Made by a program: the position numbers and the translations under genes
Notes under the pieces: generated by a model
The model's database searches: none
What the model was told of the DNA's origin: nothing
Seen by the model: the letters and a program-made list of their open reading frames with translations, nothing else
Part shown: piece after piece, positions 548-56,047 of the stretch
How positions within the stretch are numbered: the first letter of the stretch is position 1
How the letters are laid out: the number at the start of each line of letters is the position of its first letter
Virus record (IMG/VR): IMGVR_UViG_3300036978_000157
Location: 1 to 58,120 of that record
Reading direction: 5' to 3' (one strand)
Source of the DNA: a virus
DNA length: 58,120 bases

Positions 548-1834
548 TTATGCGGTCGCCCTACCCTGTGGAGAGAAACGTGCCAATTTACTGGCAAGTC
601 CTTCGGCAATACTCATTCTTGGTTTCTGGGAATCCGATGCACTTGGCGATGACGAGATGCGTGATGATCCTTTGAGTTGTGCGATATACTCGTCTTTCTC
701 TTTGACCATCTCTTGGTATGCCTTGAGTTGTGCTTGAATCTTCTGATAGGCGCGGCCTTGGTGGATCAGTCGGTTCATGTCTTCAACTGATGCCTGCTCG
801 TTGGTCTGCTGTGTAGCTGCCAGCGCAATAGCCTCGTCGCGGGAGATGTCGAACTTGATTCCCTTTTCCTTCATGTAGTCAGCAACCACATCTGGAATTT
901 CGGTAGCCCTATCAATCTCTTGTTGAGTGTTCTTGTAGCCTTCACGCCACTGGTTCAGATACTTGTTCCTGCCTTCTTGCTCTTTTTGTTTAGCGGTTTG
1001 AATGATATTCTGCTTGGTTTCTTCAAAGTTGACAAGAGCTGCGTGATGTCCTTGAGTTGCTTTGATGAAGCTGTTGACTTGCTCCGCGAATTGATACTGC
1101 TTGAATTGCGAGAGCGAGTTCGTGATTTCCTCGAACGCTTGGTCGCGGTCGGCTTCTGCCGCTCTACGATCCTCTTCGGAGGACGCATTGAAGATGGAGG
1201 CATTTGCATTGACAGCACGGGAGAATGTCGAAAGAAGAGTTGGATCATTCGATAGCAATTGTCGCGCAGTGTCGTAGGTATTCTTGATAGGATCGAGGTA
1301 AGTTTTTTTGAAGTCGGGATTGCTTGTGATGTCGTGGAAGTCAAGCTTACCCCGGAGTTCCTTGATCTGCTCTGATAGTTGTTGCTCAACGTCCAGCTTC
1401 TCTTGGTTGGCTTTGTTGAGTTGTTCTTGGTAGTGGTTGGTTTCTTTAGTCGATGTTGACTCGGCGACCAATCGCTCAAGTTCTTGGATTTTGGTTTCAA
1501 ACTTGGGGATTTCATCTTTCTTGTATTTCTCAAGTTCTTCTTTGAGTTTTCGATTCTCTTCGATTTGCCGCTCAACGAATCCTTTTTTCTTTCCTGTGCG
1601 GTCAGACGTGATTTCAGCTTCGGTAACTCCCGTGTGTTCTTCTGGTGGTTCTTCTTCATTGAATTTTTTAATGCCGAGATTGGGATCACCAACATTGGTA
1701 GCACTGGGCTTGCCTTCGTCGGTTTGTTGCTGACTGAACTTCTTGAGGAAGTCAGATGTGTTACCTTTAATCGGAACTTGAGGTTTAGCCTTCAGTTCTT
1801 TGATTACTTCTGCTGTGTCGTTTGGGTCTGCCAT
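548..1834 (-). CDS. putative capsid scaffolding protein
   Basis: This 428-residue protein is highly charged and rich in Glu, Gln and Lys. A long predicted coiled coil spans roughly residues 80-170 and helical segments continue to about 390. The C-terminal 25 residues are Ser- and basic-rich, and scaffolding proteins often bind the capsid protein through such a basic tail. No enzyme motif is visible. It lies between portal and major capsid genes, the classical scaffold position, and is followed by a strong terminator. The role is inferred from position and composition. It is repeated at 54758-56044. Confidence 0.65.
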   Translation of the reverse strand: MADPNDTAEVIKELKAKPQVPIKGNTSDFLKKFSQQQTDEGKPSATNVGDPNLGIKKFNEEEPPEEHTGVTEAEITSDRTGKKKGFVERQIEENRKLKEELEKYKKDEIPKFETKIQELERLVAESTSTKETNHYQEQLNKANQEKLDVEQQLSEQIKELRGKLDFHDITSNPDFKKTYLDPIKNTYDTARQLLSNDPTLLSTFSRAVNANASIFNASSEEDRRAAEADRDQAFEEITNSLSQFKQYQFAEQVNSFIKATQGHHAALVNFEETKQNIIQTAKQKEQEGRNKYLNQWREGYKNTQQEIDRATEIPDVVADYMKEKGIKFDISRDEAIALAATQQTNEQASVEDMNRLIHQGRAYQKIQAQLKAYQEMVKEKDEYIAQLKGSSRISSSPSASDSQKPRMSIAEGLASKLARFSPQGRATA

Positions 1835-1837
1835 AAA

Positions 1838-2083
1838 TTAGATTTCGTCGAGGTCTGGGTCGATTGTGATGTCCGCTGGTTCTTTATGTTTTCCAGCAAC
1901 TTTTGTTTTTTTGAATGCTCCCTGCTCCTCAGTTCCAATAGCTTCAATAGTTTTGATTGCATGGATAAGCGTGGTTACTCCTTCTGGTGGGTTTACATTA
2001 AGTAGTAAATACGCCTGTAGTTTGTTCCAGTCTTCGTGTGAGGTTATTGCCGCGCATAGGGATTTTACTTTTTCTGTTGTCAT
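1838..2083 (-). CDS. small protein between portal and scaffold
   Basis: The 81-residue product has a helical N-terminal two-thirds and an acidic C-terminus ending DPDLDEI. Its ATG overlaps the portal stop (ATGA), which indicates translational coupling, and the scaffold starts 3 bp after it. It could be a small head-assembly or head-tail accessory protein. I do not recognise a family. Confidence 0.7.
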   Translation of the reverse strand: MTTEKVKSLCAAITSHEDWNKLQAYLLLNVNPPEGVTTLIHAIKTIEAIGTEEQGAFKKTKVAGKHKEPADITIDPDLDEI

Positions 2084-19029: not shown

Positions 19030-19629
19030 TCAGACTGCTTGCTCTTCCCCTTCTTCCACTTCCCCTTCGTTATCGTAAACGATAGCCTCTTCCACTTCGT
19101 TCTGTTCCCCTCTTCCCCCTTCTACATATTGCCCGGATATTACTTCCACCTCTTCCGCTTTCTGTGGCCCGGTCATGTGCAGGCTGATCATTGCATTCAC
19201 GCTCATTGCCCGTTTATCACCAATGTTTTGATCATCCAAGCCAAGCGTCCTTCTCGCCGTCTTATCTAATTCTGACAGCACTTCCAAGCGTTCCCGCTGC
19301 TCTTTAATGTTACCCATTTTCTTTCTGGCAACTATCTCGGCTCTCTCTTCACTCACCTGTTTAAGCATAAACCGCAGATGCTCTTCGGTTTGATCCTTCA
19401 TTGCCTCAATGATTGTCTTCTCAATCATGCCCGTGGATTGCACTCGGATGAGCTGTCTTTGCTTTGACCACTGCCCTTTGATCATGACATTCTTCACATA
19501 GAATCTGGAGAGTCCAATGAACTCTGGCATCTTTACTATGTCAGCGATTTCGTTCCCTTGGATGTATAAAGCTCTCACTTTATCCATGTCCCACTTCTTT
19601 CTCGCATCGACTTGCTTCTTTGCTTTCAT
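19030..19629 (-). CDS. terS: putative terminase small subunit
   Basis: In this 199-residue protein the N-terminal ~60 residues have an HTH-like pattern (MDKVRALYIQGNEIADIVKMPEF then FYVKNVMIKGQWSKQR), typical of DNA-recognising TerS proteins. A central coiled coil (about 70-125) would drive ring formation. The C-terminal tail is very acidic (EEVEVISG...EVEEGEEQ). It lies alone on the minus strand, 12 kb from terL, which is unusual. It could also be another HTH regulator. A palindrome lies 15 bp upstream of its start and another inside (19070-19085). Confidence 0.55.
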   Translation of the reverse strand: MKAKKQVDARKKWDMDKVRALYIQGNEIADIVKMPEFIGLSRFYVKNVMIKGQWSKQRQLIRVQSTGMIEKTIIEAMKDQTEEHLRFMLKQVSEERAEIVARKKMGNIKEQRERLEVLSELDKTARRTLGLDDQNIGDKRAMSVNAMISLHMTGPQKAEEVEVISGQYVEGGRGEQNEVEEAIVYDNEGEVEEGEEQAV

Positions 19630-19643
19630 GGCCGAAAAGTAGA

Positions 19644-19659
19644 TTATCGGTTACGATAA
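19644..19659. repeat. dispersed palindrome upstream of the TerS-like gene
   Basis: TTATCGGTTACGATAA is a full 16-bp family member between the divergent TerS-like gene and the 19707 promoter. Confidence 0.8.
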
Positions 19660-19706
19660 ATCAATAAAATTATTTTGACTAAATGTGAAATAAATATATA
19701 AAACTA

Positions 19707-19735
19707 TTGACAAAGTGGGTGACTTGTGCTATACT
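19707..19735 (+). promoter_or_regulatory. strong sigma70-type promoter of the 19961 operon
   Basis: TTGACA (19707-19712), a 17-bp spacer and TATACT (19730-19735), the closest match to consensus in the window, in an AT-rich upstream context. It drives a ~220-nt structured leader and then a long series of small genes. Confidence 0.85.
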
Positions 19736-19742
19736 TATTGAA

Positions 19743-19960
19743 GGTCGGGGAAGAGTAGTCTTCTCACGACAATTGATCATTTAACATTTTAGGTTTTCAG
19801 TTTCGGTTTTTCGTGTGCCGTTGGCATTATCGTAAAAGATAATGTCAGCGGTGTAATGCAGCTTGGTTATCGTGTCCGATAATCATGTGCGAGCAATCTC
19901 GCCAGCGGTGACAAGCCCGTAAAGCATAACGCAAATGCAGAGTCATAACACACGAAACAA
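19743..19960 (+). promoter_or_regulatory. complex structured leader of the 19961 operon
   Basis: In order it holds a GTCG..GAAGA/TCTTC..CGAC hairpin, then a block (ATTGATCATTTAACATTTT...) matching the leader of the 18157 gene. A GGCATTATC/GATAATGTC hairpin follows, then a CTTG/CAAG stem enclosing a GGTTATCG-TGTC-CGATAATC hairpin (19865-19883) and a GCGAG/CTCGC hairpin. It ends with ACACGAAACAA just before the ATG, a tail shared with later leaders. Structures are by eye. Confidence 0.55.
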
Positions 19961-20200
19961 ATGAAAATAACAAAACAGCATATAGTAAACAGGTTAGAAT
20001 ACCTATACAATGTGACAAGCATCCACTTTGATCTATCAATTCAATGTTCTGGTAGGTCGAAAGGATATTCCATCATGATCAATGGCTCTCATGTCATGAC
20101 ATATGGTCATGTTCCAATTGCAGTCCTTGATCAATGCATCACTGCCTTTGCAAAAGGATATAATAGAGGCGCGTGTGATTTTGCTCCTAAAGCATTATGA
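19961..20200 (+). CDS. hypothetical protein
   Basis: This 79-residue protein is the first gene after the strong promoter. It has beta-type residues in the centre (GYSIMINGSHVMTYGHVPIAV) and two or three Cys. The family is unknown. High expression is expected from the promoter. Confidence 0.65.
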   Translation: MKITKQHIVNRLEYLYNVTSIHFDLSIQCSGRSKGYSIMINGSHVMTYGHVPIAVLDQCITAFAKGYNRGACDFAPKAL

Positions 20201-20436
20201 CTACTAAAACTATCGTATCCGATAAAGGTAACAAGTATATCGTTCCTGTCGTTTCCGCCGAAGAGATGGAACAAATCATGTTCGGAATGGATTCGCCCGG
20301 ATGGTGTCTCACTTGTGGTGAGGAAGTCGATGGTGTTGAGCCAGACGCTTCCAAGTATCTTTGCGAATGCTGCGGTCAGCGCAAAGTATACGGCATGGAG
20401 CAACTGCTTATAATGGATTTACTTGTTATAAAATGA
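20197..20436 (+). CDS. small zinc-binding protein
   Basis: The 79-residue protein has C-L-T-C (about residue 37) and C-E-C-C-G (about 55-59), which form a plausible four-Cys zinc site (WCLTCGEEVDG...YLCECCGQRKVYG). The ATG overlaps the previous stop. A CTATCGTATCCGATAA palindrome encodes residues near the start. Its function is unknown. Confidence 0.65.
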   Translation: MTTKTIVSDKGNKYIVPVVSAEEMEQIMFGMDSPGWCLTCGEEVDGVEPDASKYLCECCGQRKVYGMEQLLIMDLLVIK

Positions 20437-20573
20437 ACTACCAAGTCTATTCAACGATCACAGTCTGCCTGCTCACTTCATTCAAAAGATATTGGGCATG
20501 GCGGCATGATCCATATTGGCGCAAAACCCTTCGCGATTATGTCGTAGCATTACGATATATCCGTTCCAAGTAA
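20433..20573 (+). CDS. small aromatic/basic protein
   Basis: The 46-residue protein starts at an ATG overlapping the previous stop (ATGA). It is rich in Tyr/Trp/Arg (RYWAWRHDPYWRKTLRDY) after a short hydrophobic stretch. It could associate with membranes or nucleic acid. The family is unknown. Confidence 0.5.
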   Translation: MNYQVYSTITVCLLTSFKRYWAWRHDPYWRKTLRDYVVALRYIRSK

Positions 20574-20653
20574 TTAGCCACTCTGTTCTGTTATCGTTTA
20601 CGATAGCAGGACAGCAGGCTGACTACAACCAGTCGGCAAAAACACGAAACCAA
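20574..20653 (+). ncRNA. repeated structured leader element, copy A
   Basis: P1 AGCC 20576-20579 pairs with GGCT 20617-20620. P2 TGTTCTG..CAGGACA carries the palindrome TTATCGTTTACGATAG (20591-20606) at its tip. Hairpin GCTGACT/AGTCGGC (around 20619-20636) overlaps and would compete with P1, so two folds are possible. The element ends AACACGAAACCAA just before the ATG at 20654. The family has copies at 21559, 22018 and 22733. Confidence 0.55.
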
Positions 20654-21331
20654 ATGTATATTATACATGAAACCAATGACATTGTAGTAATCGCTACAAG
20701 AAACAGCAAGAACCGCAAGACAGGCAGCAGCGTTCAGATTTGGATTATGGATGCGCGTATGCATCCTACCGAGTCACGCAAAGGCCCGGACGCAGACAAT
20801 CAATGCAATGGCTGTGAGTTTGCATCCAAGCAGGGATGTTATGTGAATGACAATCCTCTCGGTGCAATCTGGCGAGCGTATCAGCGCGGCTCATATGAAT
20901 ATCTTTATATGGGAACACGCGAATGGTATGACTTCTTCTCTGTGCCTTATGTCCGTTTCGGTGCGTATGGTAATCCTTCTCACATTCCATTGGAGATGGT
21001 CTACGATATCGCCAAACTTTCCAAGCGTATCACAGGCTACTTCCATGACTGGCACACTATGCCAGCACCACTTGCCAAAGCGTATGGTAGATACTTTATG
21101 GCTTCTACCAATACAAGCAATGTGGAGTATGCCAAGAACCTCGGCTTGCGGACATTCACAGTCACAAACGAACCTCTCGTTAACGATATCGAATGTCTTG
21201 CAGATGCCAAGGGTCTGTCTTGTTCAGAGTGTGGATTGTGTGATGGTAACTATCGCCGCTCTTCCCTCCCATCTGTGTGGATCAATCCTCATGGATATCA
21301 AGTGCGTAAAGCGGTGGAGGCTATAGCATGA
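20654..21331 (+). CDS. hypothetical protein with N- and C-terminal Cys clusters
   Basis: The 225-residue protein has an N-terminal part with CNGCEFASKQGCYV (C-x2-C-x7-C, about residues 50-61) followed by Trp/Tyr-rich strands (GSYEYLYMGTREWYDF). The middle contains HDWHTMPAPLAKAYGRYFMAST, and a second cluster (LSCSECGLC, about 193-201) is near the end. Three- and four-Cys clusters suggest iron-sulphur or zinc binding. The overall pattern resembles an uncharacterised phage family. The start is set by the conserved leader tail; upstream in-frame sequence belongs to the leader. Confidence 0.65.
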   Translation: MYIIHETNDIVVIATRNSKNRKTGSSVQIWIMDARMHPTESRKGPDADNQCNGCEFASKQGCYVNDNPLGAIWRAYQRGSYEYLYMGTREWYDFFSVPYVRFGAYGNPSHIPLEMVYDIAKLSKRITGYFHDWHTMPAPLAKAYGRYFMASTNTSNVEYAKNLGLRTFTVTNEPLVNDIECLADAKGLSCSECGLCDGNYRRSSLPSVWINPHGYQVRKAVEAIA

Positions 21332-21405
21332 GTGTAAGAAAGTTACTTATCCTTATCATGCTCTTCCAAGTAGTAGTAGCCATTGCAATCCTATGCTCGA
21401 AATAA
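21328..21405 (+). CDS. 25-residue single-membrane-span peptide
   Basis: MSVRK, then a hydrophobic run (LLILIMLFQVVVAIAIL), then CSK. The ATG overlaps the previous stop (ATGA). It is the third micro-membrane peptide of this type in the window. Function unknown. Confidence 0.5.
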   Translation: MSVRKLLILIMLFQVVVAIAILCSK

Positions 21406-21557
21406 CAAAGCTCAAAGCAAAGAAGCTCTTCGATGCGATTCCTATCAAGCAAATCGGCGTTGTCCGCGCCACCACTCCCAAGAAAAAACCTGTCACCATC
21501 ATAACAAAGAAAGACAAGCAAGTCCTTCGCGTATGTGACGGCAAGTATTGGGCGTAG
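21393..21557 (+). CDS. small basic protein
   Basis: The 54-residue, Lys-rich protein (KLKAKKLFDAIPIKQIG...KKKPVTIITKKDKQVLRVCDGKYWA) starts inside the micro-peptide gene. The beta-rich, basic C-terminus ends in a WA motif. The family is unknown. Confidence 0.55.
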   Translation: MLEITKLKAKKLFDAIPIKQIGVVRATTPKKKPVTIITKKDKQVLRVCDGKYWA

Positions 21558-21558
21558 T

Positions 21559-21635
21559 CAGACACTCTGGTGTTATCGGAAACGATAATGCCAGCAGTCT
21601 GCTTACATGGTGTAAGTAGAAAAACACGAAACAAA
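21559..21635 (+). ncRNA. repeated structured leader element, copy B
   Basis: P1 CAGAC 21559-21563 pairs with GTCTG 21597-21601. P2 is GGTGTTATCG-GAAA-CGATAATGCC (21569-21592), a 10-bp stem with a GNRA loop made from the dispersed palindrome. P3 is CTTACA-TGG-TGTAAG (21602-21616). The linker after P1 is ACTCT. The element ends AACACGAAACAAA before the ATG at 21636. Confidence 0.6.
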
Positions 21636-22016
21636 ATGAACACATACTATACAAAACATCCAGTCAACGACATCTATACTCCTGCTACAATTAGCTCGGA
21701 AGATGCAATCGCAATCCTCATCCAGTCGGCAGTCACCAATGCAGTTAACAAGGTAAATGACATCATCATCAATGCTGTCATCGCCCGTGTTAACGATGCG
21801 GTCAGTGATGCTAATATCCAAAACAAAGTAGAAGCACATTTATCTACAATGGATATTGGAGTTATAGTTGAAGAAGCCGCTTCAAATGCCGCCCGTGATT
21901 ACGATTACGATAGTGCAATCGAGAATGCGTTAGATGGTGTAGACATCGATGAGATGGTTACAGAGAAGATCACCGATCACTTAGACTCTTGTTCCATTCA
22001 AGTCCGTATCAACTAA
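21636..22016 (+). CDS. hypothetical acidic helical protein
   Basis: The 126-residue protein is rich in Ile/Val/Asp/Asn with repeated helix patterns (AVTNAVNKVNDIIINAVIARVNDAVSDAN), which could form a coiled coil. The C-terminal part is acidic (DYDYDSAIENALDGVDIDEMV). The start follows the conserved leader tail. The family is unknown. Confidence 0.65.
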   Translation: MNTYYTKHPVNDIYTPATISSEDAIAILIQSAVTNAVNKVNDIIINAVIARVNDAVSDANIQNKVEAHLSTMDIGVIVEEAASNAARDYDYDSAIENALDGVDIDEMVTEKITDHLDSCSIQVRIN

Positions 22017-22017
22017 T

Positions 22018-22103
22018 CAGACACGCTGCTCATCCGCGAGGGTGGGCAGTAGTCTGGTTATCGTTTCCGATAATCAGTAAACACGAAACAACAAACTAAT
22101 AAT
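22018..22103 (+). ncRNA. repeated structured leader element, copy C
   Basis: P1 CAGAC 22018-22022 pairs with GTCTG 22052-22056. P2 CTGCTCATCC-GCGA-GGGTGGGCAG (22026-22049) has a GNRA loop and does not use the palindrome. P3 is GGTTATCG-TTTC-CGATAATC (22056-22074), the palindrome. The stems covary in sequence with copies A, B and D while the layout is kept. It ends AAACACGAAACAAC upstream of the ATG at 22104. Confidence 0.6.
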
Positions 22104-22523
22104 ATGAAAAGAGAACAATACTTAGAATCAAGAGTATATGATGAACATGAGTATATCGAAGTAGAAGAAGCTACTATCGAGATGCTCAATGAAACATACA
22201 GCTTCAAGTCGTTAGGTGGCCCGTTCACCTATATGTCCGCTGGTGATGTTCTGAAAGAATATGACCATGCTGCCTTCCGCGAGACAGTAAATAACTATCA
22301 GGATTCAATGATCCGCGATGGTAACTGGATCGAGTATGACGATGCCTGCTGGTTTCCACCAGTTCAAGAGTTCATCGACAACATCAAAGAAGCTATCAAG
22401 GATGTTGACCCCTTCCATGTGGATGAAGGTGAACATCGTGGTTGGTATTACTATGATGACATGGCTATGTGGTTAGGCCCGTTCAACTCACCAGAAGATT
22501 GTTACAATCACGCTTGCCCATGA
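22104..22523 (+). CDS. hypothetical acidic protein
   Basis: The 139-residue protein is strongly acidic with many Tyr/Trp (RGWYYYDDMAMWLGPFNSPEDCYNH). Low pI and exposed aromatics can indicate DNA mimicry or anti-defence roles, but nothing specific is recognised. It is preceded by a leader element, and the next gene starts within its stop. Confidence 0.65.
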   Translation: MKREQYLESRVYDEHEYIEVEEATIEMLNETYSFKSLGGPFTYMSAGDVLKEYDHAAFRETVNNYQDSMIRDGNWIEYDDACWFPPVQEFIDNIKEAIKDVDPFHVDEGEHRGWYYYDDMAMWLGPFNSPEDCYNHACP

Positions 22524-22732
22524 ACAAAGTATTATTCAACGAAGGCAAACAAGGTTTTGCTCTTCATGGTATAACATCCCCAAAGTTCACAGGCAAATGC
22601 TCCGCTTGGTTTTGGAGCAATGGTAAGATGCATGGGTGCGAGTGGATCCGCCGCGATGGTCAGTCGCGTCTAATCCCTATGTTCACTCCAATGTATAGAT
22701 ACTTGGAATCGCTCGGCCCGATTTGGAAGTAA
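22520..22732 (+). CDS. small hypothetical protein
   Basis: The 70-residue, Trp/Gly-rich beta-type protein (KCSAWFWSNGKMHGCEWIRRDGQSRLIPMF) starts at the ATG overlapping the previous stop. The family is unknown. Confidence 0.6.
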   Translation: MNKVLFNEGKQGFALHGITSPKFTGKCSAWFWSNGKMHGCEWIRRDGQSRLIPMFTPMYRYLESLGPIWK

Positions 22733-22814
22733 CCAGACACTCTCCTCATTATCGTTCACGATAGTGGGGAGCAGTCTGGTAGCATGGTGCTACTGGAAAA
22801 CCAAAACTAATAAC
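22733..22814 (+). ncRNA. repeated structured leader element, copy D
   Basis: P1 CCAGAC 22733-22738 pairs with GTCTGG 22774-22779. P2 is CTCCTCATTATCG-TTCA-CGATAGTGGGGAG (22742-22771), containing the palindrome. P3 is TAGCA-TGG-TGCTA (22780-22792). The tail differs from the others (AAAACCAAAACTAATAAC before ATG 22815). Confidence 0.6.
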
Positions 22815-22970
22815 ATGACAACAAATACATTAATACGAAAACTAATAAATCTTGCTGGCGAAGCAATACATCTTGCTGACCAATACGCAGGAGGTCAGTC
22901 TGAAACTGTAACTGAACTATCTAATCAATTAAATGAATTGATGGAACACGCAGCAGAGGAAAATGAGTGA
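22815..22970 (+). CDS. small helical protein
   Basis: The 51-residue protein is acidic and amphipathic (LIRKLINLAGEAIHLADQYAGG...LSNQLNELMEHAAEENE). Its start is set by the leader element. The family is unknown. Two short helices could form a dimer. Confidence 0.6.
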   Translation: MTTNTLIRKLINLAGEAIHLADQYAGGQSETVTELSNQLNELMEHAAEENE

Positions 22971-22999
22971 GAACACATAACCTATACAAACAGAAACCT

Positions 23000-23203
23000 A
23001 TGTATACTATAATCGAACCACAAGAGTTTGAGCTTTATGCTCTTCTCCGACTCAAGTCAGCACTTAAATTAGAAGTTGCTGGCATGAAGCACAGCAGAGG
23101 ATCAGTCTACGCCAAGGTCAAGAAAGACTTTGGTTTCAAAGGAAACAAAGAGTCCGTTCTTAATCAACTCATCAACCACATCAGCAACAAATACAACCAA
23201 TGA
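23000..23203 (+). CDS. small hypothetical protein
   Basis: The 67-residue protein starts at ATG 23000, preferred over the GTG at 22967. It has a helical, basic middle (LLRLKSALKLEVAGMKHSRGSVYAKVKKDFGFKGNKESVLNQL). It is probably a small HTH-like or RNA/DNA-associated protein, but no motif is certain. The next gene's ATG overlaps its stop. Confidence 0.6.
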   Translation: MYTIIEPQEFELYALLRLKSALKLEVAGMKHSRGSVYAKVKKDFGFKGNKESVLNQLINHISNKYNQ

Positions 23204-23430
23204 AAAACACAAAACAAAAACCAATTGGCGATGAAATCATGGAACAAATCCATATGACTGGCACAACCTTCACTATTAAAATGGTTGAAGATTGCGAAGG
23301 TCAACCAACTGTTATCCTTAAAGATAACGATTGTGGTGACATGACAATCATCCAAACAATCGCCAATGAAATCAAGGTGACTCATCTTGATAACGACGAA
23401 ATCGAAGCAATTAAAGATGTTCTTCTATGA
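23200..23430 (+). CDS. small acidic protein
   Basis: The 76-residue protein has a beta-rich centre (TFTIKMVEDCEGQPTVILKDNDCGDMTIIQTI) and an acidic C-terminus. The ATG overlaps the preceding stop and its stop overlaps the next start. The family is unknown. Confidence 0.6.
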   Translation: MKNTKQKPIGDEIMEQIHMTGTTFTIKMVEDCEGQPTVILKDNDCGDMTIIQTIANEIKVTHLDNDEIEAIKDVLL

Positions 23431-23567
23431 GTGCTACAGAAAAAAACCAACCAACCTGCCTACCACCAGAGGCATACATCCGCATCATTCGCCACTGCGA
23501 AAACAATGTTCCGAAGTTCCGCTCTTCGGTCTATCCTAAACCGCAACCTGTTAAGTCTAAAAAATGA
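23427..23567 (+). CDS. small hypothetical protein upstream of the helicase
   Basis: The 46-residue protein (MSATEKNQPTCLPPEAYIRI...PVKSKK) is linked by four-base overlaps to both neighbours. The C-terminus is basic. The family is unknown. Confidence 0.5.
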   Translation: MSATEKNQPTCLPPEAYIRIIRHCENNVPKFRSSVYPKPQPVKSKK

Positions 23568-25198
23568 ACATTCAAGCATTACTCGATACAGTTGAGTTCT
23601 CTCAACCCATGTCCACTACAACCAAGCGTGGCCCTCGTCTTCTTCGGAAGGCGAGCGTCACCTCGGAGTTCTGGAATTTATACAGGGCAGATAAGGATGA
23701 CTACAAACAAGTCATGGGTGACCTTGGCTTCCAACTCTCCAAGTTCAGAGAGGAGTGGGAACTTGCTTGGTGGTCGAGGGCCGACTTATCGTTTCCGACA
23801 ATACCTTCCTCCTCACCAGAGAAGGTTGAGCCAGAGGTTAAATATGACCTTCCTCCACTCATCTATCCCGAAAAGTTGTTTGAGTATCAACTAACTTCAG
23901 TTCAACTCGCACTTCGTTCCATGTCTAAATACAATCGTGCATTGCTTGGACATGGCACTGGCATGGGCAAGACTGCTATTGCCCTTGCTGTAGCCCGTGA
24001 ACGTGGCAGGCGCGTTGCTGTCATCTGCCCCAAACCCATCACCACCGACTGGCATAGGCTTGCCAAATACCTCGGCGTTGAAACCTACGAAGTTTGTGGG
24101 TGGGAATGGGTCAAGACCGGCAAGAGTAAGATTGGTAGGTGGACAGATGATAAGAAGAAGGAATTCCAATTCATGCTGCCTCCAGATACCGATCTTATAT
24201 TCGATGAGGTTCACCGCGCCAAGGCTCAAGGCAATACACAGAATGCCTTCCTGCTCCGCGATGCTGTAGTCCAGAATGTGCCAACAATAGCATTATCGGC
24301 TACGATAGCTGATGATCCTACAAAGATGTGGGCAATCGGCCAGTTCCTCGGACTCCATCAAGGTGGTAAGGACTTCTTCCGCTTCCTCAACGCCAATGGA
24401 TGCTACAATACCAACTTCGGTATGCAGTTCAAGGGTAACAACAAAATACTCAAGAACCTTCATGGCCGTATCTTTCCAGATCGTGGCAATCGTCTCAAAC
24501 CATCTGATGTTGGTAGTGCCTTTCCAGAGACACTCATCCAAGCCAGAGCGTTTGATATGGATACTGCCCGTGATATCGCCAAGGAATACGATGAACTACT
24601 TATGAGGGTAGAGCAGATCAAGATGCAGGAGAATGCCGCTTCATCGATGGGTGCAGTCCTTGCTGAGATGACCCGCGCCCGTCAGAAGATCGAACTCTTC
24701 AAAGCACCAGCAGTCTGTGCTATGGTCAAGGATTTGATCGAGGAAGGTAACTCGGTCTTTATTGCAGTCAACTTCACCGAGACTCTCAAGTTCATGGAAG
24801 AAGAACTCAAGACTACCTGCTCCATTCGCGGTGGTCAGAGTGATATGGTTAGGAGAGGTAACATCGACTCATTCCAGAATGACAAGTCCAGAGTTATAAT
24901 CGGCATCATCCAAGCCTGTCGAGAAGGTCTGAACCTGCACGATCTAAACGGCAAATACTCAAGGGTTGCCCTCATCATGCCGACCTACTCAGTCTTCGAT
25001 CTCAAGCAGGTATTGGGTCGAGTCCATCGAGCAGGAGGTAAGTCTAAGTCCATTCAGTATCTCATCTACGCCGCTGGTGTAGACATCGAGGAGTCAGTAT
25101 GCAGTTCGCTGGATGCTAAACTCAAGCGCATGGATACCCTCATGGATGGTGAGGTGGATGGGACGATATCAGTAGCACCGAAAGAAGTGAATGCCTAA
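23564..25198 (+). CDS. SNF2/DEAD-type superfamily 2 helicase
   Basis: The 544-residue protein has two RecA-like lobes. A Q-like entry LFEYQLTSVQLA is near 105-116, Walker A GTGMGKT at 131-137 and motif II DEVH at 214-217. Motif III SAT is at 245-247 and motif VI QVLGRVHRAGG near 486-496. It is most like small phage SNF2-family translocases acting on branched or protein-bound DNA during replication or recombination. An N-terminal ~95-residue extension has no known domain. It is the last gene of the operon and is followed by a terminator. Two palindrome copies lie inside (23786, 24293). Confidence 0.87.
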   Translation: MNIQALLDTVEFSQPMSTTTKRGPRLLRKASVTSEFWNLYRADKDDYKQVMGDLGFQLSKFREEWELAWWSRADLSFPTIPSSSPEKVEPEVKYDLPPLIYPEKLFEYQLTSVQLALRSMSKYNRALLGHGTGMGKTAIALAVARERGRRVAVICPKPITTDWHRLAKYLGVETYEVCGWEWVKTGKSKIGRWTDDKKKEFQFMLPPDTDLIFDEVHRAKAQGNTQNAFLLRDAVVQNVPTIALSATIADDPTKMWAIGQFLGLHQGGKDFFRFLNANGCYNTNFGMQFKGNNKILKNLHGRIFPDRGNRLKPSDVGSAFPETLIQARAFDMDTARDIAKEYDELLMRVEQIKMQENAASSMGAVLAEMTRARQKIELFKAPAVCAMVKDLIEEGNSVFIAVNFTETLKFMEEELKTTCSIRGGQSDMVRRGNIDSFQNDKSRVIIGIIQACREGLNLHDLNGKYSRVALIMPTYSVFDLKQVLGRVHRAGGKSKSIQYLIYAAGVDIEESVCSSLDAKLKRMDTLMDGEVDGTISVAPKEVNA

Positions 25199-25207
25199 AA
25201 AACAAAT

Positions 25208-25242
25208 AGCCCACAGGGAATAAAATCCTTGTGGGCTTTTTT
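25208..25242 (+). terminator. intrinsic terminator between convergent operons
   Basis: AGCCCACAGG pairs with CCTTGTGGGCT, then TTTTTTGTTG. The other strand also has a T-rich tail, so it probably works in both directions for the helicase gene and the leftward 25263 gene. A palindrome copy follows at 25247-25262. Confidence 0.9.
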
Positions 25243-28919: not shown

Positions 28920-31900
28920 TCACTCAATGTCAAGAGGGATTTCCAACCTATCTTGCAGGTCTTCTTTCACCTCTCTACGGATGATACGAATCTCTGTGCT
29001 GAGTAGGTCTTGAGCTTCATCAAGTGGTAGCTCATCCAAGTCATCTGATATCTCAACAATCTTATCCCGCATCATTGGCCCTGCTTCTCGGACGAACTGC
29101 AACTCCTGCTCCTTGGTCATCCTTTTCCCATTGTCCCATGAAAGGCTTGAATCCCATGCTGGAGGTGTAAGGTTGTTCCTATACATAATCTCCCATGCAG
29201 GGTCTGGCTTCTCAGTAGAAACGATACGGCCAAACACGCTTGCCAAACGCTTTCCAAATCCTTCCTCTTGTATAGCAGATGGGAACTTGGCATCTTCACC
29301 AAAGTAGTTCACATCCTTGTTCAAGAAGTTAACTGAGCCGGGCATATCCTTGAAGAAGTTTGAAAGGTAATCTCCACCTACTGCTTTGTCTTCGGTGTAA
29401 AGTTTGTTGATGTCGCGGAATGCGCCCGGAACTAACATACGGGATATGATTCCTCCGACAAACTGAGTTCCCTTCTCAACTGGATTCTGAGATTCTTTGA
29501 ACTCCAGCAAGTCGGCAAGACCAGTAAGGAATGATTGGTTCAGAACGGCAACGAATCCAATGGAGAATGGTGCTGTGATTGCGGAAGCCGCAAGTTTACC
29601 GATGTCTTCTGCTTGAAGTTTCTCACCCTTCTTCCTCATTGATTTTATTTCCTCTTGCAACATAGCTCCACTTGCCAACGGAATAACAAGGGGAGTGTAG
29701 AGGTATGAGAAGTATGTATCCCCAACTCTGACCGAATACTTCTGACCTCCACGCTGCTGCCAGATTTTCTTTTGGCGCGGGTCTTTCGGCCCTTCGGCAT
29801 AGAACTGTATGTATGGACGCTTCTCTTGATCCTCTTCATCTCCACCAGTGAGTGCTTGGATAATGAATGGAACCATCGCAAGTATACCGAGTATACCCTT
29901 CATTTGTATTTCATATTCCTTATCTGCTCGACCTTGCGTGAATGGGTCTTTCATCCCGCTCTTCTTCGCTCTAATTAATCTGTATTGAGAAAAGATTGGA
30001 GTGTAGTTCAGAAACTCATTGGTCACATTCGCCACAACATTCGTGAATGGGATTACGAACTTAGTTGCTGGATACTTTGCAAGAAGTCCGTTTACGAAGT
30101 TGGCAAGCATTCCGAATAACCCTTGTGGGTCTTGGTTGAACGCCGTCTCAAGTGATGCTTGTTCAGCTATAGCTCTCTGCTCTTCATCAGCCAACCTTTG
30201 CTCACGATAGATTTCGTTTGCTCGGATTATAATCTCTTGGTCTTTCTGTTTACCTGTAGCTTGGGATGATGCAAGTTCCAGTTCGGCTTGCCTCTTCGCC
30301 ATGTCAAACCCTTCTCTGGTATATGCTGCCGCGCCAAGCTGTGCTGCCTTAGCCTCGTATGCTACCTCTCGCAAGAACATATCAGTTGCTCGGAGTAGTC
30401 GCATCAACTGCCTTGGGTTCACATTCTTCAATGCTGTATTCATCCAATCGGGGAGGAAGTTAATCTTCCCGTCACCGAAGTTCGTAAGGTAGTAAACAAT
30501 CTTGGGAGTGTTATCTGGAGTAGCCCCCTCAAGAACATTGGTCTTGGGATACTTTGCCCTCTTCTCGTCCTGCATACCAGATGGGTTTAACCCATTACGC
30601 ATGACATAGAGGAATGAATTCACCGCCGCTGATTGCTTGCCAGATACAGCAGAATACAAAGCCCTCATCATTGGGAAGAATGATTTAGGATTATACATTG
30701 ACCATACTGCCACATTGGAAATGAGATTGCTTGCACCAGACAAGGCGTTAATAGCCGAGGTGGATGCCTGTGAGATGAGTGCAAAATACCAGTAGCTTGA
30801 TAGAACATCTCCAGTAGTGAACTTGGATTTGTTCATCAACGCCCGACCCATCTTCTCTTCCTCGATGCTACGGATCACACCCGCTGGTAGCTTGGATATC
30901 CTGTCTCCCCACTCGCGGAGTGTATTTGTGAACTCAGCATCGTATGGCATGAAACCTTTAGGGAAGTCATGTGTTTTACGGAATGCCTCGTATACTCCTT
31001 CAGCATCCAACACACCCATGTTTGCCATCTCAACCAACTTCTGGAGGATGGTGCGCTGGTTGGAGGTTGGTTTGATCTTGTTATCTGCTAATATCTTTTG
31101 AGCTTTCTTGATGGCACTATCAACAATTTGACTTCTTTCAGCCAAAATTATTTTGGTCATTTGCTTGGATAGTATATCGGCTAACTCTGTAGCCTGCTCT
31201 TTATCCATTCCAACCTCAGTGATGATCCTGCTGATCAGTCCATCCTTGAAGTTACCTTCGTCGCTCGTTGAGAGTCTTGTAATATCTTTGAGGTTCTTGA
31301 TTGCTTTGAATTGTGCTTCAGCTTCCTCTTGGATTTTCTGTGAGAGAAGTGGTTTAGGTATGACCTTGCCTGTCTTCTCATCGATACGGAATCCAAGTTT
31401 GTCTTTTAGAACTTTGTTCGTTTCTTCGTTCAGATACTTGTCTGTGTCTTGGATGAACTTCTCGATCAGTTCGTTTGATGCGCCAGTTCCTTGAAGCTCA
31501 GTGCGGATGTGCTGCTTGACTGCTTCTTGGTTTACATTCCTCTGTGATCCAAGGTAGGTGAATAGATCAGCAAACTTGTAGTTCAAGAACTCTGCTGAGT
31601 CTTTGATTGCTTGTTCTCTTAGGCTATCTGCCCATTGATTTGAGCGGAGTGCCTTAAAGAGTTCTGCGTAGTCGGCGTTGAAGGCATCCCGACTCTGATA
31701 CTTCTCTGCCATTCGGTTTGCCAAATCGTTCACGAAGGATTTGTAAGCATTATCGTTTCCGATAACTGCCTTCACCATCTCCAAATATTTACCACTACGC
31801 TTACCTTTCTTCTGCTTTTCAATGCCAGCCTGCTGGATACCCAACTGCTTCGCGGCAGTAGCAAAGGATTGATACATGAACTTGCTGACATTATCGATGG

Positions 31901-34900
31901 AGAATTCCTTCTTGTTCATCCCAATCGACAGGATGCTTTGCACAGCTTGGTCTACTACCATGTTGGCATACTTATCTTCTTTTGTATCGAAGAGTCCTGC
32001 TGCGAAGTCCAAGAGAATTGTGCGAGTAGATTGATTCTGCTTCTTGGAAACCTCGGCGCGGATAGATTGACGCACCTTCTCTGGATTCTTCTGTGCCATC
32101 TTCAACATGGACACTGCTTTTCTAAATACTTCTTTAGTATTGAAAACCTTATCCATCGACTTGCGCCGATCACCTCGGATAACATTAGCCACCTCATTGA
32201 ATGAGGTTTTAGTTGCTGTTGATAGATTACCCATCGAAGCAATGATGTTTCTCTTGTAGGTATCAATAGCCATTCCTGCACCGACAAGTTTACGAAGTGC
32301 AGCGGCGGCTTGAACCATTCGCCCACTGTCACGCAAAGTTAGTGCTATATTGCGAGCTAATCCTGCTTCCACATCGATAGATTCCAAAGCAAATGATTCA
32401 CGGGCAGTTGCCTTCATGTTGGAGTCCATCACTTCTTTTCTGTATACAGAAGAGAGTTCATACATCATCTCCATCAATACCAACCTCTCGTATGGAGAAA
32501 TGTTATATGCCCTTTGTGCGGTAGCCTCATCCATGCTCGACAAGTTCTGAGCAACACTAAAGAAGTCAGCATCTGGATTGTTTCTGAAAATCTTATCCAA
32601 GGCATTGTTTGCTGCCGTGAACGAGTTCGATGTAAATAGATTTGCTGCCAGCGAGAATGGAGACAGGAGTGCTTTATTCCACTTCCTATCCTTCTGAGCA
32701 GCGCGGGACTGATACTCTTTATATGCCTTGTTATCCTTTGGCTTGAGCATTTCAACTTGAGCTTCCAAGTCAGAGATCATCCTTGTTGTGATCTTCTGCA
32801 TGATGCTCTGCCCCCTCTTTGACATTGGTTCACCTTCTGGCGTTACACCTGCCTTCGCTTCGATTGCTGGAGTTATCGTTTCCGATACTGCCCCTGCTTC
32901 AACTTGTCCACCAGCTTCTGTGAGTGCGACATCTTGGTCAGTAGGGAAAACTTCCCTGCGTTTTGAGTCTTTGATCCGTTTGTATTCTGGATTGTTTTCA
33001 TAGGATGTTATGTCTTGATCTATCAATAGATAGGGTTCTGCTAAAGATTGTTTCTGTTCATCAGATATTGGTAGCCCATCAATGATCCTCAATGCCGTAT
33101 CGATTTGGCGATTTGCCAATTCAATTTGCCTTGGAGTAATCTGAGAATAAAACTCTGGAGTTTGAGAAACTTTCTGTTTCCTCTTCCCGTCTTTGACTAT
33201 CTTTGACTCACCAGTATTGAGAACTTCAGCGATATAATTAAGGACTTGGGATTTCTCAATCTCAACTAATGACTGTGGAACTTGGAAGTCATCTTGTTCT
33301 GCGTTGACTTCTTCTTCTGAAATTTGTGGATCAGATTCAATTATTGCTGAAACTTCTGTGGCAGTTGGTTCTGCTGCAATCTTTTTGGTTTGGCCTTTGC
33401 GAACCCATTCGATACCACTGATCTCAGATATGTCTTGGTTTGGATTTACAGGAACTTCATACTTATTATTTGTTCCAAACTCACGGAAAATAACAGTTCC
33501 ATCTTCAAGCGAGATTGCTCCACGCATCCCCTCAAAGATAAAAGTATCCTTGTCTTTAATCGCATCCGATATTGTTCTTTGCGGCAATGGTGGTTGAACT
33601 GCTAAAGATTCTTTAACAGTTGGTTCTGCTTTAGAGTAATCTTTAAACTCGTAGTTAGCCTCGCCCTTTACGATACCATACCCATCAAGGATGTTGTTGA
33701 TGGTATCTTCCATCCGCTTAACTTCCTTAGTCGAGGTTCCTTTGCCAAGATAGCGAGCGATACTGTTACGAACAAACTGAAGTGCGTTGAGGATAGAGTT
33801 CTTCCATGCTATGATATTACCCTTGTCTTGGTCTGAGAATGCTTCCTGCTCTGCTTTCCTAATGGCATTCAAGTCCTCGGTGATCTGCCCCGTCCTTACA
33901 CGTTGGATGACCATTCGCATGAACTCTTGTGAGAATGTCATGTCATCGAGGAGTTTTGTTTTATCGTTTAAGTATGCGTTGGAAACACCCGGCAGTGCGT
34001 TTGGATTCGTTTGCCTAACCTCTTTTGCTACGTCAGAGATTCGCTTTACTATGTATTGTTCCTCTGAAAGTTTTGGTTTCTTGAGAGCCTTGTATTCGTC
34101 TTGGATGCCTTGATACATGGAGAGGTGGATAACTTCCTCTTCTATTTTCTTTGCTGCCGCCCGTGACTCTTGATCCAATGCAGCATCCCTACTCGCTGCT
34201 CGTTGCTCACCTTGGATTGATATTCCTGCCAATTGATTTACATCTGGAACTACTAAATACTTTTTACCATTGAAGAATGTCGCTCGGTATGTGCCAGTAT
34301 CGGCAGCTACTTGCTTGCCTCCAGTTAGCTTGCCGTATTCTTCGCTTGAGATGACCTCTGTGTTCGTTCCAGCTAAGAACCCTGCATTGGCAGCAATCCC
34401 CGTTCTGATTGCATTCTTGAGCTTCTGGGCGCGTTTGCTGGTGGTCTTGATGCCACCGAGAACTTTGTCTGTAGCCTTAACGAATGCTTGAAGGACTGGT
34501 CGGTCTGGGAAGAAGGTTCCGAATTCTGATCTCCGTCCAGATGGTGGTAGCCCCATCTCGCGGGTTGGAGTTGTTCCCTGTGGTTCTACTCCCTGCTCAA
34601 TAGCGGTAAGTTCAGCGAGTTTGTTTTGCTCAACTGCGATAGCTTTATTCACCCTATCGATACCTACTTGATCGTTCTCATCCAAAGCGTCGAACTCTTT
34701 GTTCAGTTCATTGATCTTTGCTATCGTTGTTTCTTTCGTAGCGGTGGGTGTTGCAGGTGCTGCGGCAGGTGCTTCTGTTTTAGCTTCTGCTGGGCCTGCG
34801 GAGAGCTTATCAAATTGGGCCTGTAATGCTGCGAGGTTGGCCTTCTTCTCGTTCAATGCCAGTTCAGCGGTTTGGTATGCTGGCGCGGTCTTCTCAATCG

Positions 34901-36758
34901 CTTGCAGTCCCATCTCATCATTCGCAATCTCTTCTTTGAGGTTGTTGATATCTGTGCTGACAGACATCATCTGTTGAGCGAGTTCTTGTGCTGGATCAGT
35001 ATCAAGACCCGCTGCCATTTCGTCAGCTTTAGACTCGATATCAGTCTGCTCACTACCTTCTTGATCTCCTTGCTTTGCTTGCTTCTTAGCTCTCTTACCA
35101 GCAATCATCTGAGTGAAGATGGATGTTAAAATACCAGATGCTCCACCTACCCCGCCAGCGTATTGAACGCCTTCAAAGATGTCTTGGTTAGGATCGTAGA
35201 CAAACTTCTTAACAAGATTGCCAGCTATCTCTTGTGGCATCTCGTTAAACAATGCTTCTTCAGCACCTTCAGCAACAGCAACAGCAGCTTTATTTAAGCC
35301 TTTGTATATTGATTTTTGTTGAGCATCATCAAATCGGCTTATCCATTTTTGAAGTGGAGAATAAAGTTCAAGTGGTGCTTGAGTCAACGCAGAGAACAAT
35401 GCCGCTTGGTTTGCTTGCTCGTCCGTAGCACCATCAGACTTAGCTTCTGAGTATCCTCCCCATGCAGAGTTAAGACCACCAAATGTGAGTGTGTTTGCTT
35501 TCTGAAAAAGATTGATTACTCGTTCTGAATTGTATCCAAGCGATGCCCGTGCAGTATTTCCCAATGCAGCAGTAACAATTGCCGCGCCAGTAAAACCAAG
35601 TCCACTGGATACATCCCTACCAAACTGAGCCAATGGGCCAACCTTCCTTGGGTCTTGTCCTTGTTGCCTTTGTTCATCAGCATACTCTGCTGCATCGATA
35701 AATGACTGACCTGTTTGTTCAAGTCCTACGCCTTTCAGTAGCAGTCCAATCGGCCCAACAGTTCCAGAACCAATAGCTCCACCATATCCATCCCATGCTC
35801 GCTTGAAGATATCTGTAGCGACATCCATAAACTCTGGGGATGTCATTGCCCACTCTTCAGCTAACTTCCTTATTTGTGGATTCTTCTTTAGTTCTTCTAA
35901 TTGATCTGGTGCTTGACCAACATTCAGATACTGCCCCGCCATTCTTGAGATCAGACCCGGAGCGTCGATTCCCTTAGTCTTTGCGTAGTCCAAGAATTTA
36001 TCGTTTACGATAATGTTATCGATGAACTGACGCTGATCTCCGATTTGTTTGATAGCAGCACTTGCTCTTGTCTCAATAGGTATTGAGGTTATTTTACCTT
36101 CTCCTCCACCAAAACCTTTTTCTTCACCAAGTCCAGTCTCCAATTCAACTGAAACCCCCGGTTTACGAGTAATCAATTTACTCAAAAATCCAAGTTGATT
36201 TGCTTCGTGCAGTTGTTGGTTTTTTTGTAATTTAGATAATTCAGCACGAAGATCGCTTGGTTGTCCGATGTATTCAGAAACCGATCTAATAGCGAGGGGA
36301 GTATAACCAAAGCCCGATGAAGACTGAAGTTCTTTAGTCTTTTCTTTGATCAGATTCCCTCGAAAGTCCAATGACATTCCATCTGGGCTGATTGGTTCTT
36401 CGATTGTCCTTCCCTTAATATCGATTGCTTGGGCGCGGCGAACCTCTACTGGTTTACCTTCCACCAAAGAAGAAATTTTTCCACGCCCACTTTCGCTTTC
36501 CACCTTAATAGGTTCACCCGCCATGAAGGTCTTCGTTTGACCTTCCTCTTGATCCAAGATATCTGGCCCAGTAACCATTGGTTCTCCACCAATAGGAAGA
36601 CCACCAGCGCGATTGATAGCCTCTGGAATTTGACGCAACTGCTGAACTTGAGATTGTTCTTGTAATGATTGTTGTTTCTCTTCGTCAAAAACAAGATCAT
36701 TGATTGATACGCTTTTACCACCTCCATCAAAAACGAGGTCTTCAATACGAATGCTCAT
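28920..36758 (-). CDS. giant polyvalent virion-associated protein
   Basis: This 2,612-residue protein, the largest gene here, starts with two copies of a D-L-V-F-D motif (residues 7-11 and 21-25). Gly/Ala-rich hydrophobic segments follow near 400 and 540, then Ala/Gln/Glu coiled coil with linkers. A degenerate metallopeptidase-like motif EEVIH lies near 880. The C-terminal third (1800-2600) is helical with several hydrophobic segments, including GILGILAMVPFIIQAL and a KFVIPFTNVVANVTNEF motif. I associate these with large polyvalent proteins carried in virions and injected with DNA. It lies with tail/neck genes. The role (ejection or host-takeover protein) is inferred. Confidence 0.6.
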   Translation of the reverse strand: MSIRIEDLVFDGGGKSVSINDLVFDEEKQQSLQEQSQVQQLRQIPEAINRAGGLPIGGEPMVTGPDILDQEEGQTKTFMAGEPIKVESESGRGKISSLVEGKPVEVRRAQAIDIKGRTIEEPISPDGMSLDFRGNLIKEKTKELQSSSGFGYTPLAIRSVSEYIGQPSDLRAELSKLQKNQQLHEANQLGFLSKLITRKPGVSVELETGLGEEKGFGGGEGKITSIPIETRASAAIKQIGDQRQFIDNIIVNDKFLDYAKTKGIDAPGLISRMAGQYLNVGQAPDQLEELKKNPQIRKLAEEWAMTSPEFMDVATDIFKRAWDGYGGAIGSGTVGPIGLLLKGVGLEQTGQSFIDAAEYADEQRQQGQDPRKVGPLAQFGRDVSSGLGFTGAAIVTAALGNTARASLGYNSERVINLFQKANTLTFGGLNSAWGGYSEAKSDGATDEQANQAALFSALTQAPLELYSPLQKWISRFDDAQQKSIYKGLNKAAVAVAEGAEEALFNEMPQEIAGNLVKKFVYDPNQDIFEGVQYAGGVGGASGILTSIFTQMIAGKRAKKQAKQGDQEGSEQTDIESKADEMAAGLDTDPAQELAQQMMSVSTDINNLKEEIANDEMGLQAIEKTAPAYQTAELALNEKKANLAALQAQFDKLSAGPAEAKTEAPAAAPATPTATKETTIAKINELNKEFDALDENDQVGIDRVNKAIAVEQNKLAELTAIEQGVEPQGTTPTREMGLPPSGRRSEFGTFFPDRPVLQAFVKATDKVLGGIKTTSKRAQKLKNAIRTGIAANAGFLAGTNTEVISSEEYGKLTGGKQVAADTGTYRATFFNGKKYLVVPDVNQLAGISIQGEQRAASRDAALDQESRAAAKKIEEEVIHLSMYQGIQDEYKALKKPKLSEEQYIVKRISDVAKEVRQTNPNALPGVSNAYLNDKTKLLDDMTFSQEFMRMVIQRVRTGQITEDLNAIRKAEQEAFSDQDKGNIIAWKNSILNALQFVRNSIARYLGKGTSTKEVKRMEDTINNILDGYGIVKGEANYEFKDYSKAEPTVKESLAVQPPLPQRTISDAIKDKDTFIFEGMRGAISLEDGTVIFREFGTNNKYEVPVNPNQDISEISGIEWVRKGQTKKIAAEPTATEVSAIIESDPQISEEEVNAEQDDFQVPQSLVEIEKSQVLNYIAEVLNTGESKIVKDGKRKQKVSQTPEFYSQITPRQIELANRQIDTALRIIDGLPISDEQKQSLAEPYLLIDQDITSYENNPEYKRIKDSKRREVFPTDQDVALTEAGGQVEAGAVSETITPAIEAKAGVTPEGEPMSKRGQSIMQKITTRMISDLEAQVEMLKPKDNKAYKEYQSRAAQKDRKWNKALLSPFSLAANLFTSNSFTAANNALDKIFRNNPDADFFSVAQNLSSMDEATAQRAYNISPYERLVLMEMMYELSSVYRKEVMDSNMKATARESFALESIDVEAGLARNIALTLRDSGRMVQAAAALRKLVGAGMAIDTYKRNIIASMGNLSTATKTSFNEVANVIRGDRRKSMDKVFNTKEVFRKAVSMLKMAQKNPEKVRQSIRAEVSKKQNQSTRTILLDFAAGLFDTKEDKYANMVVDQAVQSILSIGMNKKEFSIDNVSKFMYQSFATAAKQLGIQQAGIEKQKKGKRSGKYLEMVKAVIGNDNAYKSFVNDLANRMAEKYQSRDAFNADYAELFKALRSNQWADSLREQAIKDSAEFLNYKFADLFTYLGSQRNVNQEAVKQHIRTELQGTGASNELIEKFIQDTDKYLNEETNKVLKDKLGFRIDEKTGKVIPKPLLSQKIQEEAEAQFKAIKNLKDITRLSTSDEGNFKDGLISRIITEVGMDKEQATELADILSKQMTKIILAERSQIVDSAIKKAQKILADNKIKPTSNQRTILQKLVEMANMGVLDAEGVYEAFRKTHDFPKGFMPYDAEFTNTLREWGDRISKLPAGVIRSIEEEKMGRALMNKSKFTTGDVLSSYWYFALISQASTSAINALSGASNLISNVAVWSMYNPKSFFPMMRALYSAVSGKQSAAVNSFLYVMRNGLNPSGMQDEKRAKYPKTNVLEGATPDNTPKIVYYLTNFGDGKINFLPDWMNTALKNVNPRQLMRLLRATDMFLREVAYEAKAAQLGAAAYTREGFDMAKRQAELELASSQATGKQKDQEIIIRANEIYREQRLADEEQRAIAEQASLETAFNQDPQGLFGMLANFVNGLLAKYPATKFVIPFTNVVANVTNEFLNYTPIFSQYRLIRAKKSGMKDPFTQGRADKEYEIQMKGILGILAMVPFIIQALTGGDEEDQEKRPYIQFYAEGPKDPRQKKIWQQRGGQKYSVRVGDTYFSYLYTPLVIPLASGAMLQEEIKSMRKKGEKLQAEDIGKLAASAITAPFSIGFVAVLNQSFLTGLADLLEFKESQNPVEKGTQFVGGIISRMLVPGAFRDINKLYTEDKAVGGDYLSNFFKDMPGSVNFLNKDVNYFGEDAKFPSAIQEEGFGKRLASVFGRIVSTEKPDPAWEIMYRNNLTPPAWDSSLSWDNGKRMTKEQELQFVREAGPMMRDKIVEISDDLDELPLDEAQDLLSTEIRIIRREVKEDLQDRLEIPLDIE

Positions 36759-56044: not shown

Positions 56045-56047
56045 AAA

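Follow-up and report, generated by a model that had tools for sequence, protein, structure and literature searches.

The window analyzed here, a viral contig of 58,120 bases (IMG/VR record IMGVR_UViG_3300036978_000157), contains on its plus strand an operon of small genes (19.7–25.2 kb) in which four gene junctions carry copies of a structured RNA element, designated A to D. These elements belong to a real RNA family and are best explained as copies of one cis-acting phage RNA located at the cassette boundaries of what appears to be a single-promoter polycistronic operon. The presumptive promoter, a sigma70-like TTGACA-17-TATACT with an extended −10 (19707–19735, plus strand; 11 of 12 consensus bases), lies upstream of the whole operon and is the best of six matches between 19600 and 25300, all others having 9 of 12. 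The last gene encodes a helicase (23564–25198; Pfam Helicase_C) and is followed by a terminator-like hairpin with a T run (25208–25237, plus strand; 12 pairs, 7 of them GC, and a TTTTT tail), which is probably the end of the operon; both signals are consensus matches only. The original prediction of these elements named transcripts starting downstream of them as evidence against it; at the level of sequence this is not borne out, the near-consensus promoter lying upstream of all four and the terminator-like site beyond the helicase gene. The elements themselves were rejected as promoters because no site within A–D exceeds 9 of 12 and the only match touching an element (20633–20662) has 9 of 12. 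No intrinsic terminators were called within A–D. Integron attC sites were also rejected, the order of core sites not fitting when compared by eye.

Anatomy of the elements

All four predicted elements are present in the layout claimed for them, which recurs among the 72 distinct copies that we parsed, both in the window lineage and in distant phages. From 5' to 3' it consists of a stop codon, strand a (YYAGAC), AC-N, the hairpin P2, Y-A, strand b (GUCUGR), the hairpin P3, strand c (YRG), an A-rich tail, and an AUG. Strands a and b form P1 (6 pairs), closing an AC/A internal loop below P2, which itself ranges from 9 to 25 pairs with a median of 13; the element before its tail measures about 61–65 nucleotides (nt). 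The loop letters are mostly ACU with CA (55 copies), followed by ACA with UA (6) and ACG or AAG with UA (5). Among unpaired bases, invariance or near-invariance is limited to about three (A7, C8, and A21 of the alignment A4, described below), the loops of P2 and P3 being variable. The stop codon adjoins the first base of a (offset 0) in 49 of the 72 copies, lies at +4 as a TAG within a in 11 and at +1 in 3, and in the remainder is found mostly at −9 to −1.

Element A (20574–20637) comprises a (20574–20579), AC-U (20580–20582), P2 (20583–20614), CA (20615–20616), b (20617–20622), P3 (20623–20633), and c (20634–20637), between the stop codon TAA at 20571–20573 and the next ATG at 20654. Element B (21558–21619) follows a TAG at 21555–21557 with a (21558–21563), AC-U (21564–21566), P2 (21567–21594), CA (21595–21596), b (21597–21602), P3 (21603–21616), and c (21617–21619), and its next ATG is at 21636. 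Downstream of the TAA at 22014–22016, element C (22017–22077) is made up of a (22017–22022), AC-G (22023–22025), P2 (22026–22049), UA (22050–22051), b (22052–22057), P3 (22058–22074, containing a palindrome discussed below), and c (22075–22077), with an ATG at 22104. Element D (22733–22796) begins after a TAA at 22730–22732 and consists of a (22733–22738), AC-U (22739–22741), P2 (22742–22771), CA (22772–22773), b (22774–22779), P3 (22780–22793), and c (22794–22796), the next ATG being at 22815. All four are on the plus strand, and in their predicted folds the start codon is unpaired, at least 16 bases 3' of c.

Two of the predicted start positions (20574 and 22733) were exact, whereas 21559 and 22018 move to 21558 and 22017, so that each is the base directly 3' of the upstream stop codon. 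The CAGAC-type layout of P1 also stands, with a correction for A, in which the helix is not AGCC/GGCT but the 6-bp TTAGCC/GGCTGA. The tail ACACGAAAC, described as common to three elements, does end A, B, and C and is absent from D; it occurs in the operon leader at 19950 as well, and in other phages the tail is A-rich and more variable.

The bare pattern CAGAC...GTCTG occurs 3 times in the window, which does not exceed chance (1.5 expected). Predicted folding of the four elements gives z scores of −7.1, −5.3, −5.6, and −5.5 relative to 200 shuffles, none of which (0/200) folds as well. A covariance model built from 42 copies (R1) scores A–D at 57–82 bits, with expectation values (E) of 1e-12 to 3e-19; as it was trained partly on A–D, the independent test is provided by distant phages outside that set, which score 28–57 bits (E 3e-5 to 2e-13).

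Covariation and distribution of the family

Covariation was assessed in A4, an alignment with 53 distinct rows that was made gap-free by trimming each row to five P2 pairs and a few P3 bases. It omits L080 and L082, where c is not clear, and c was reassigned by hand in five rows (affecting L036:1678, L093:3773, L025:239, and L101:2138); the rows are related, such that counts do not equal independent events. P1, P2, and a short P3 are 96.5% paired in A4 compared with 78% when the 3' letters are shuffled, and their covariation score of 0.592 (0.224 in shuffles) was reached by none of 500 shuffles. Cells with double changes number 122 versus 35 in shuffles, and slid-alignment controls pair at 50% or less. 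P1 accommodates UA, CG, AU, and GC at its outer pair (1-27), GC and AU at 4-24, AU, CG, and GC at 5-23, and CG and UA at 6-22.

Strand b has a second partner in c, which repeats strand a. In 71 of 72 copies c is YRG, the complement of the CUG of b; the exception, L025:192, has b GCUUGC, a GCAAGC, and a 3' strand GCAAG, all three strands having changed. A hairpin of CUG with c forms in 66 of the 72 real flanks and in 12% of shuffled flanks, and the extended b:c helix (P3*) together with P2 is 97.3% paired, scoring 0.713 against 0.284. The second base of b faces the base after c as U-A (44), G-C (9), G-U (3), or C-G (1), and because it also pairs with a5 the three strands change together (A-U-A, C-G-C, G-C-G). 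The two folds are predicted to be nearly isoenergetic, with a mean difference of 0.7 kcal and 65 of 72 copies within 4. The mutually exclusive folds suggested for A from its overlap of P1' and P3 are confirmed and prove to be general: comparison of the copies indicates that P1 (a:b) and P3* (b:c) exclude each other in nearly every one and that both are kept by coordinated changes.

Searching Rfam 15 at its gathering scores returned no match in the window or in seven distant loci, and relaxing E to 5 across 19600–23700 produced a single weak match, to twister at 19850, outside A–D. The suggestion that these are RNA elements kept by covariation, and not a known riboswitch, holds up, since P1, P2, and P3 covary and the Rfam comparison gave nothing for A–D. 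By these comparisons the family is absent from Rfam 15 and its structure is well supported.

The 225-amino-acid (aa) product of the gene after A is a DUF7227-like protein (phrog_2554), and a search with it led to 17 related viral loci, the majority rich in these elements. R1 additionally found copies in distant contigs on which it had not been trained (L025, L128, L030/L115/L117/L397, L036, L093, L044/L136, L080, L082, and L090). Where terminases were found in the distant contigs tested they are 29–33% identical to that of the window, indicating that a broad lineage of phages shares the family. The patterns that first brought up most of the distant contigs held AGACACTC and GCAGTCTG constant, and part of the sequence invariance seen in those strands therefore reflects ascertainment. 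This bias does not affect strand c, P2, or the variants that the model picked up (L025:192, L036:4223, and L093:6122); the window-lineage copies represent few independent lineages. No INPHARED phage matched the window terminase or capsid protein, and 19700–23600 had no DNA similarity to known phages. A pattern scan of bacterial genomes yielded no accepted element in the subset of loci run through the covariance model, and a scan with the tail pattern recovered mostly chance contigs.

A 16-base palindrome, TTATCGNNNNCGATAA, is dispersed through the window both in genes and between them (38 occurrences at up to 2 mismatches versus 2.1 expected). As originally described, it forms the tip of P2 in A, B, and D and lies in P3 in C. 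It was rejected as a part of the element family: 51 of 52 window-lineage elements have it in P2 or P3, never in both, compared with 5 of 20 elsewhere, making it a DNA-level feature in its own right, specific to the lineage and seated at the hairpin tip. In the form TTATCGKWWMCGATAA it occupies 34 window sites from 406 to 54616, about every 1.5 kb, and is also present in sister phages. Its spacer is 4 bases in 33 of the 34 sites, 3- and 5-base spacers occurring mostly inside the elements of relatives. The dispersed palindrome looks like a dimer-binding DNA site of the operator or stoperator kind. Elsewhere in the window, the contig ends repeat with few mismatches (548–4566 and 54758–57837), from which we take the genome to be circular or terminally redundant, about 54.2 kb in size, with population variants. 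A gene on the minus strand (28920–36758) encodes a protein of 2612 aa, very large for a 54-kb phage and possibly injected or virion-associated.

Ribozymes at comparable positions

The leader of the first gene in the operon (leader E) contains a twister-P1-like sequence (19850–19948, plus strand) scoring 20.2 bits against an Rfam cut-off of 67.2, followed by the shared tail ACACGAAAC (19950–19958, plus strand) and the first start codon (ATG at 19961). Twister-like leaders occur in the window and in ten other carriers, all below the cut-off, with scores of 22–35 bits in relatives of the window lineage (about 30–35 in six) and 45.4 in the distant G021. The T1 pseudoknot of the twister consensus, CCC/GGG, has become GAC/GUC in the window lineage, a compensatory change. 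The operon leader as a whole (19740–19963) probably contains a twister-P1 ribozyme and is a related leader of a different family from A–D. In L010 and L017 the conserved AAGCCCG of this leader reads AAUCCCG, and these copies are possibly inactive. In L425 (G021) a twister lies about 0.9 kb downstream of an element-like hairpin, just after a stop codon.

A search for the element in sister phages, whose terminases are mostly 72–97% identical, found it in none of 37 records, many of them fragments. Some sister phages carry Hammerhead_II ribozymes above the Rfam cut-off (G051, 44.4 bits; G068 and G040, 39.7 bits each), and L535 has a hammerhead of 33.6 bits. The hammerhead RF02276 is absent from the window, as is the core pattern, which was found in L032, L533, L535, and L536. 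Type II hammerheads stand directly after stop codons in L533 (3420–3511), L535 (4738–4800, minus strand), L536 (minus strand), L539, L540, and L032 (2541–2600). In the sister phages the stop codon is at 0 to −3 and an AUG follows 30–39 nt past the core, the latter distance being 46 nt in L032. The element has the same layout at its gene junctions: a stop codon, the RNA, about 30–45 nt, and an AUG. In L032 (G017) an element, a gene of 67 aa, and a hammerhead occur in succession, the hammerhead beginning at a stop codon and the element near one. For the hammerhead clusters of prophages, a role in cutting long phage transcripts down to gene-length messenger RNAs (mRNAs) has been proposed (Perreault et al. 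2011, PMC3088659).

A further structured leader, GUGGCAGUCGYYAGAACC...GGUUGGCGAGUGAAUCCRCAA, is conserved on the reverse strand of L535 and L536 directly after a TTGACA-TATAAT-like promoter. It has no Rfam match.

Possible function and known parallels

Because the element adjoins the upstream stop codon, a position at which self-cleaving ribozymes occur in some related phages, it may well divide the long polycistronic mRNA into pieces translated separately, or reset its 5' end; we prefer this reading and give it not quite an even chance. P1 with the AC-N/Y-A loop would be the form recognized, and a host or phage ribonuclease (RNase) or the RNA itself would cut it, most probably directly 5' of b. 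The cut would free b from a and allow it to fold with c, leaving a downstream message headed by a 5'-terminal hairpin, with its start region open, and an upstream message that ends in hairpin P2. Ribosomes terminating at the stop codon next to strand a should open P1, and translation of the upstream gene may thereby gate cutting. The element would then fill the role that hammerhead and twister ribozymes seem to have elsewhere, at other junctions of these phages. A cut near b followed by b:c pairing would account for the conservation of both pairings, the hammerhead-like layout, and the open tail (the region after c is A-rich and free of Shine-Dalgarno (SD) sequences) in a phage where SD sites are nearly lacking; an SD-like motif is absent before 43 of 44 checked window genes, although the promoter is sigma70-like.

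Several observations weigh against segmentation. The shortest total stem is 6+9 pairs, short for canonical RNase III, and the stem of about two helical turns used by that enzyme is attained by P1+P2 in many copies and missed in some; about three invariant unpaired bases are few for a ribozyme active site. The shortest stems thus argue against plain RNase III, and the scarcity of invariant unpaired bases argues against self-cleavage. In the loci compared, genes after hammerheads and genes after elements are non-homologous, so that the comparison gives no example of one replacing the other at a single junction, and as hammerheads share the contact with the stop codon it is perhaps mere compaction. 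One distant copy (L082/G021; L425 32682–32728) runs into the 3' end of a gene on the reverse strand and is not directly followed by a gene, which is an odd setting for the family.

An alternative without cleavage, which we consider unlikely, is a switch gated by translation: a ribosome at the stop codon would cover a, b would pair with c, and access to the downstream start would change, providing re-initiation or insulation in a phage lacking SD sites. The exact abutment of stop codon and strand a in 49 of 72 copies, the near-equal energies of the two folds, the rarity of SD-like motifs, and the A-rich tail all suit such a switch, and strand a with AC-N (9 nt) is about the footprint of a terminating ribosome. 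However, the start codon is exposed in both folds and well beyond c in A–D, and since hammerheads touch the stop codon too, the contact alone is no argument for ribosome sensing. A composite of the two ideas, in which a new class of bistable RNA couples ribosome termination to cleavage (by the RNA itself or by a factor recognizing the AC/A loop) through three-strand exchange, giving each cassette a portable processing and start signal, seems to us distinctly unlikely.

The junctions may instead be kept mainly as repeats for homologous recombination of small genes, with the hairpin as a transcriptional or translational insulator. Relatives have three different element types before the DUF7227-like gene, and one type precedes several unrelated genes; L010 has two tandem elements around a remnant, ATGAACATATAGAATAG, made of ten bases from the start and seven from the end of a deleted gene, which in L008 and L012 is still present between the two elements. 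By this distribution of types among genes and the tandem in L010, the elements mark the ends of exchangeable cassettes. Exchange explains the spread of the elements but not their structure, as compensatory changes on three strands across terminases 30% identical are left unaccounted for, and we regard it as an improbable explanation of the whole.

It is more doubtful still that the element is an RNA antiterminator like HK022 put, the nascent RNA binding RNA polymerase and suppressing termination or polarity along the operon. Its size and two-hairpin layout resemble putRNA and the operon is long with internal untranslated gaps, but each phage has several copies, situated at gene junctions, where HK022 has two put sites, no known family matches, and the stop-codon contact and the competition between a and c have no role in the model. 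Pistol and other recent ribozyme classes were found next to known ribozymes. A new self-cleaving class is nonetheless the least probable of these readings, even though the element shares operons with twister-like RNA (window lineage) and a hammerhead (G017) and is laid out like the sister-phage hammerheads, because it has about three invariant unpaired bases compared with ten highly conserved nucleotides in pistol (PMC4604425) and its freely varying P2 and P3 loops have no evident pseudoknot partner.

Irrespective of mechanism, the family is missing from Rfam, covaries on three strands, and is conserved among phages with terminases about 30% identical. If segmentation is correct, each cassette in phages without SD sites would obtain a message end and a message start of its own from a portable RNA module, and the pairing rule is clear enough to be tested with a few mutants.

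The element differs from metabolite riboswitches in that no known aptamer family was found by Rfam in the window or in seven distant loci, no terminator-like site occurs in A–D, and the start codon is unpaired. The RNase III sites of T7 early mRNA are likewise hairpins with a conserved asymmetric internal loop at the gene boundaries of one early transcript, whereas the loop of the phage element is only 6 pairs from the helix end, its stems go down to 15 pairs, and it has a conserved alternative fold. In promoter early stem-loop (PeSL) cassettes of T4-type phages a repeated structured element bounds small exchangeable genes and includes an early promoter. Elements A–D, by contrast, have no good promoter and show RNA-level covariation on three strands. 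The term PeSL is used in PMC4503421, among other papers. HK022 putRNA is about 70 nt long with two stem-loops, its two put sites lying near early promoters (PMC9378689); the element shares with putL and putR its character as a cis RNA of roughly 70 nt, its two stem-loops, and its origin in a phage early transcript. It has another sequence and loop, lies after stop codons, and is present in a different copy number, with no triplex evidence. Prophage hammerhead clusters (PMC3088659) are similarly found between the genes of phage operons and, in the phages studied here, right after the stop codon and 30–46 nt before the AUG. Unlike them, A–D lack the hammerhead core, have another secondary structure and three-strand competition, and are only putative sites of cleavage. 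Although neither fold of the element has a terminator or a buried start site, in its pairing logic it resembles the exclusive hairpins of attenuators, in which the strand in the middle has a choice of two partners, one 5' and one 3' of it.

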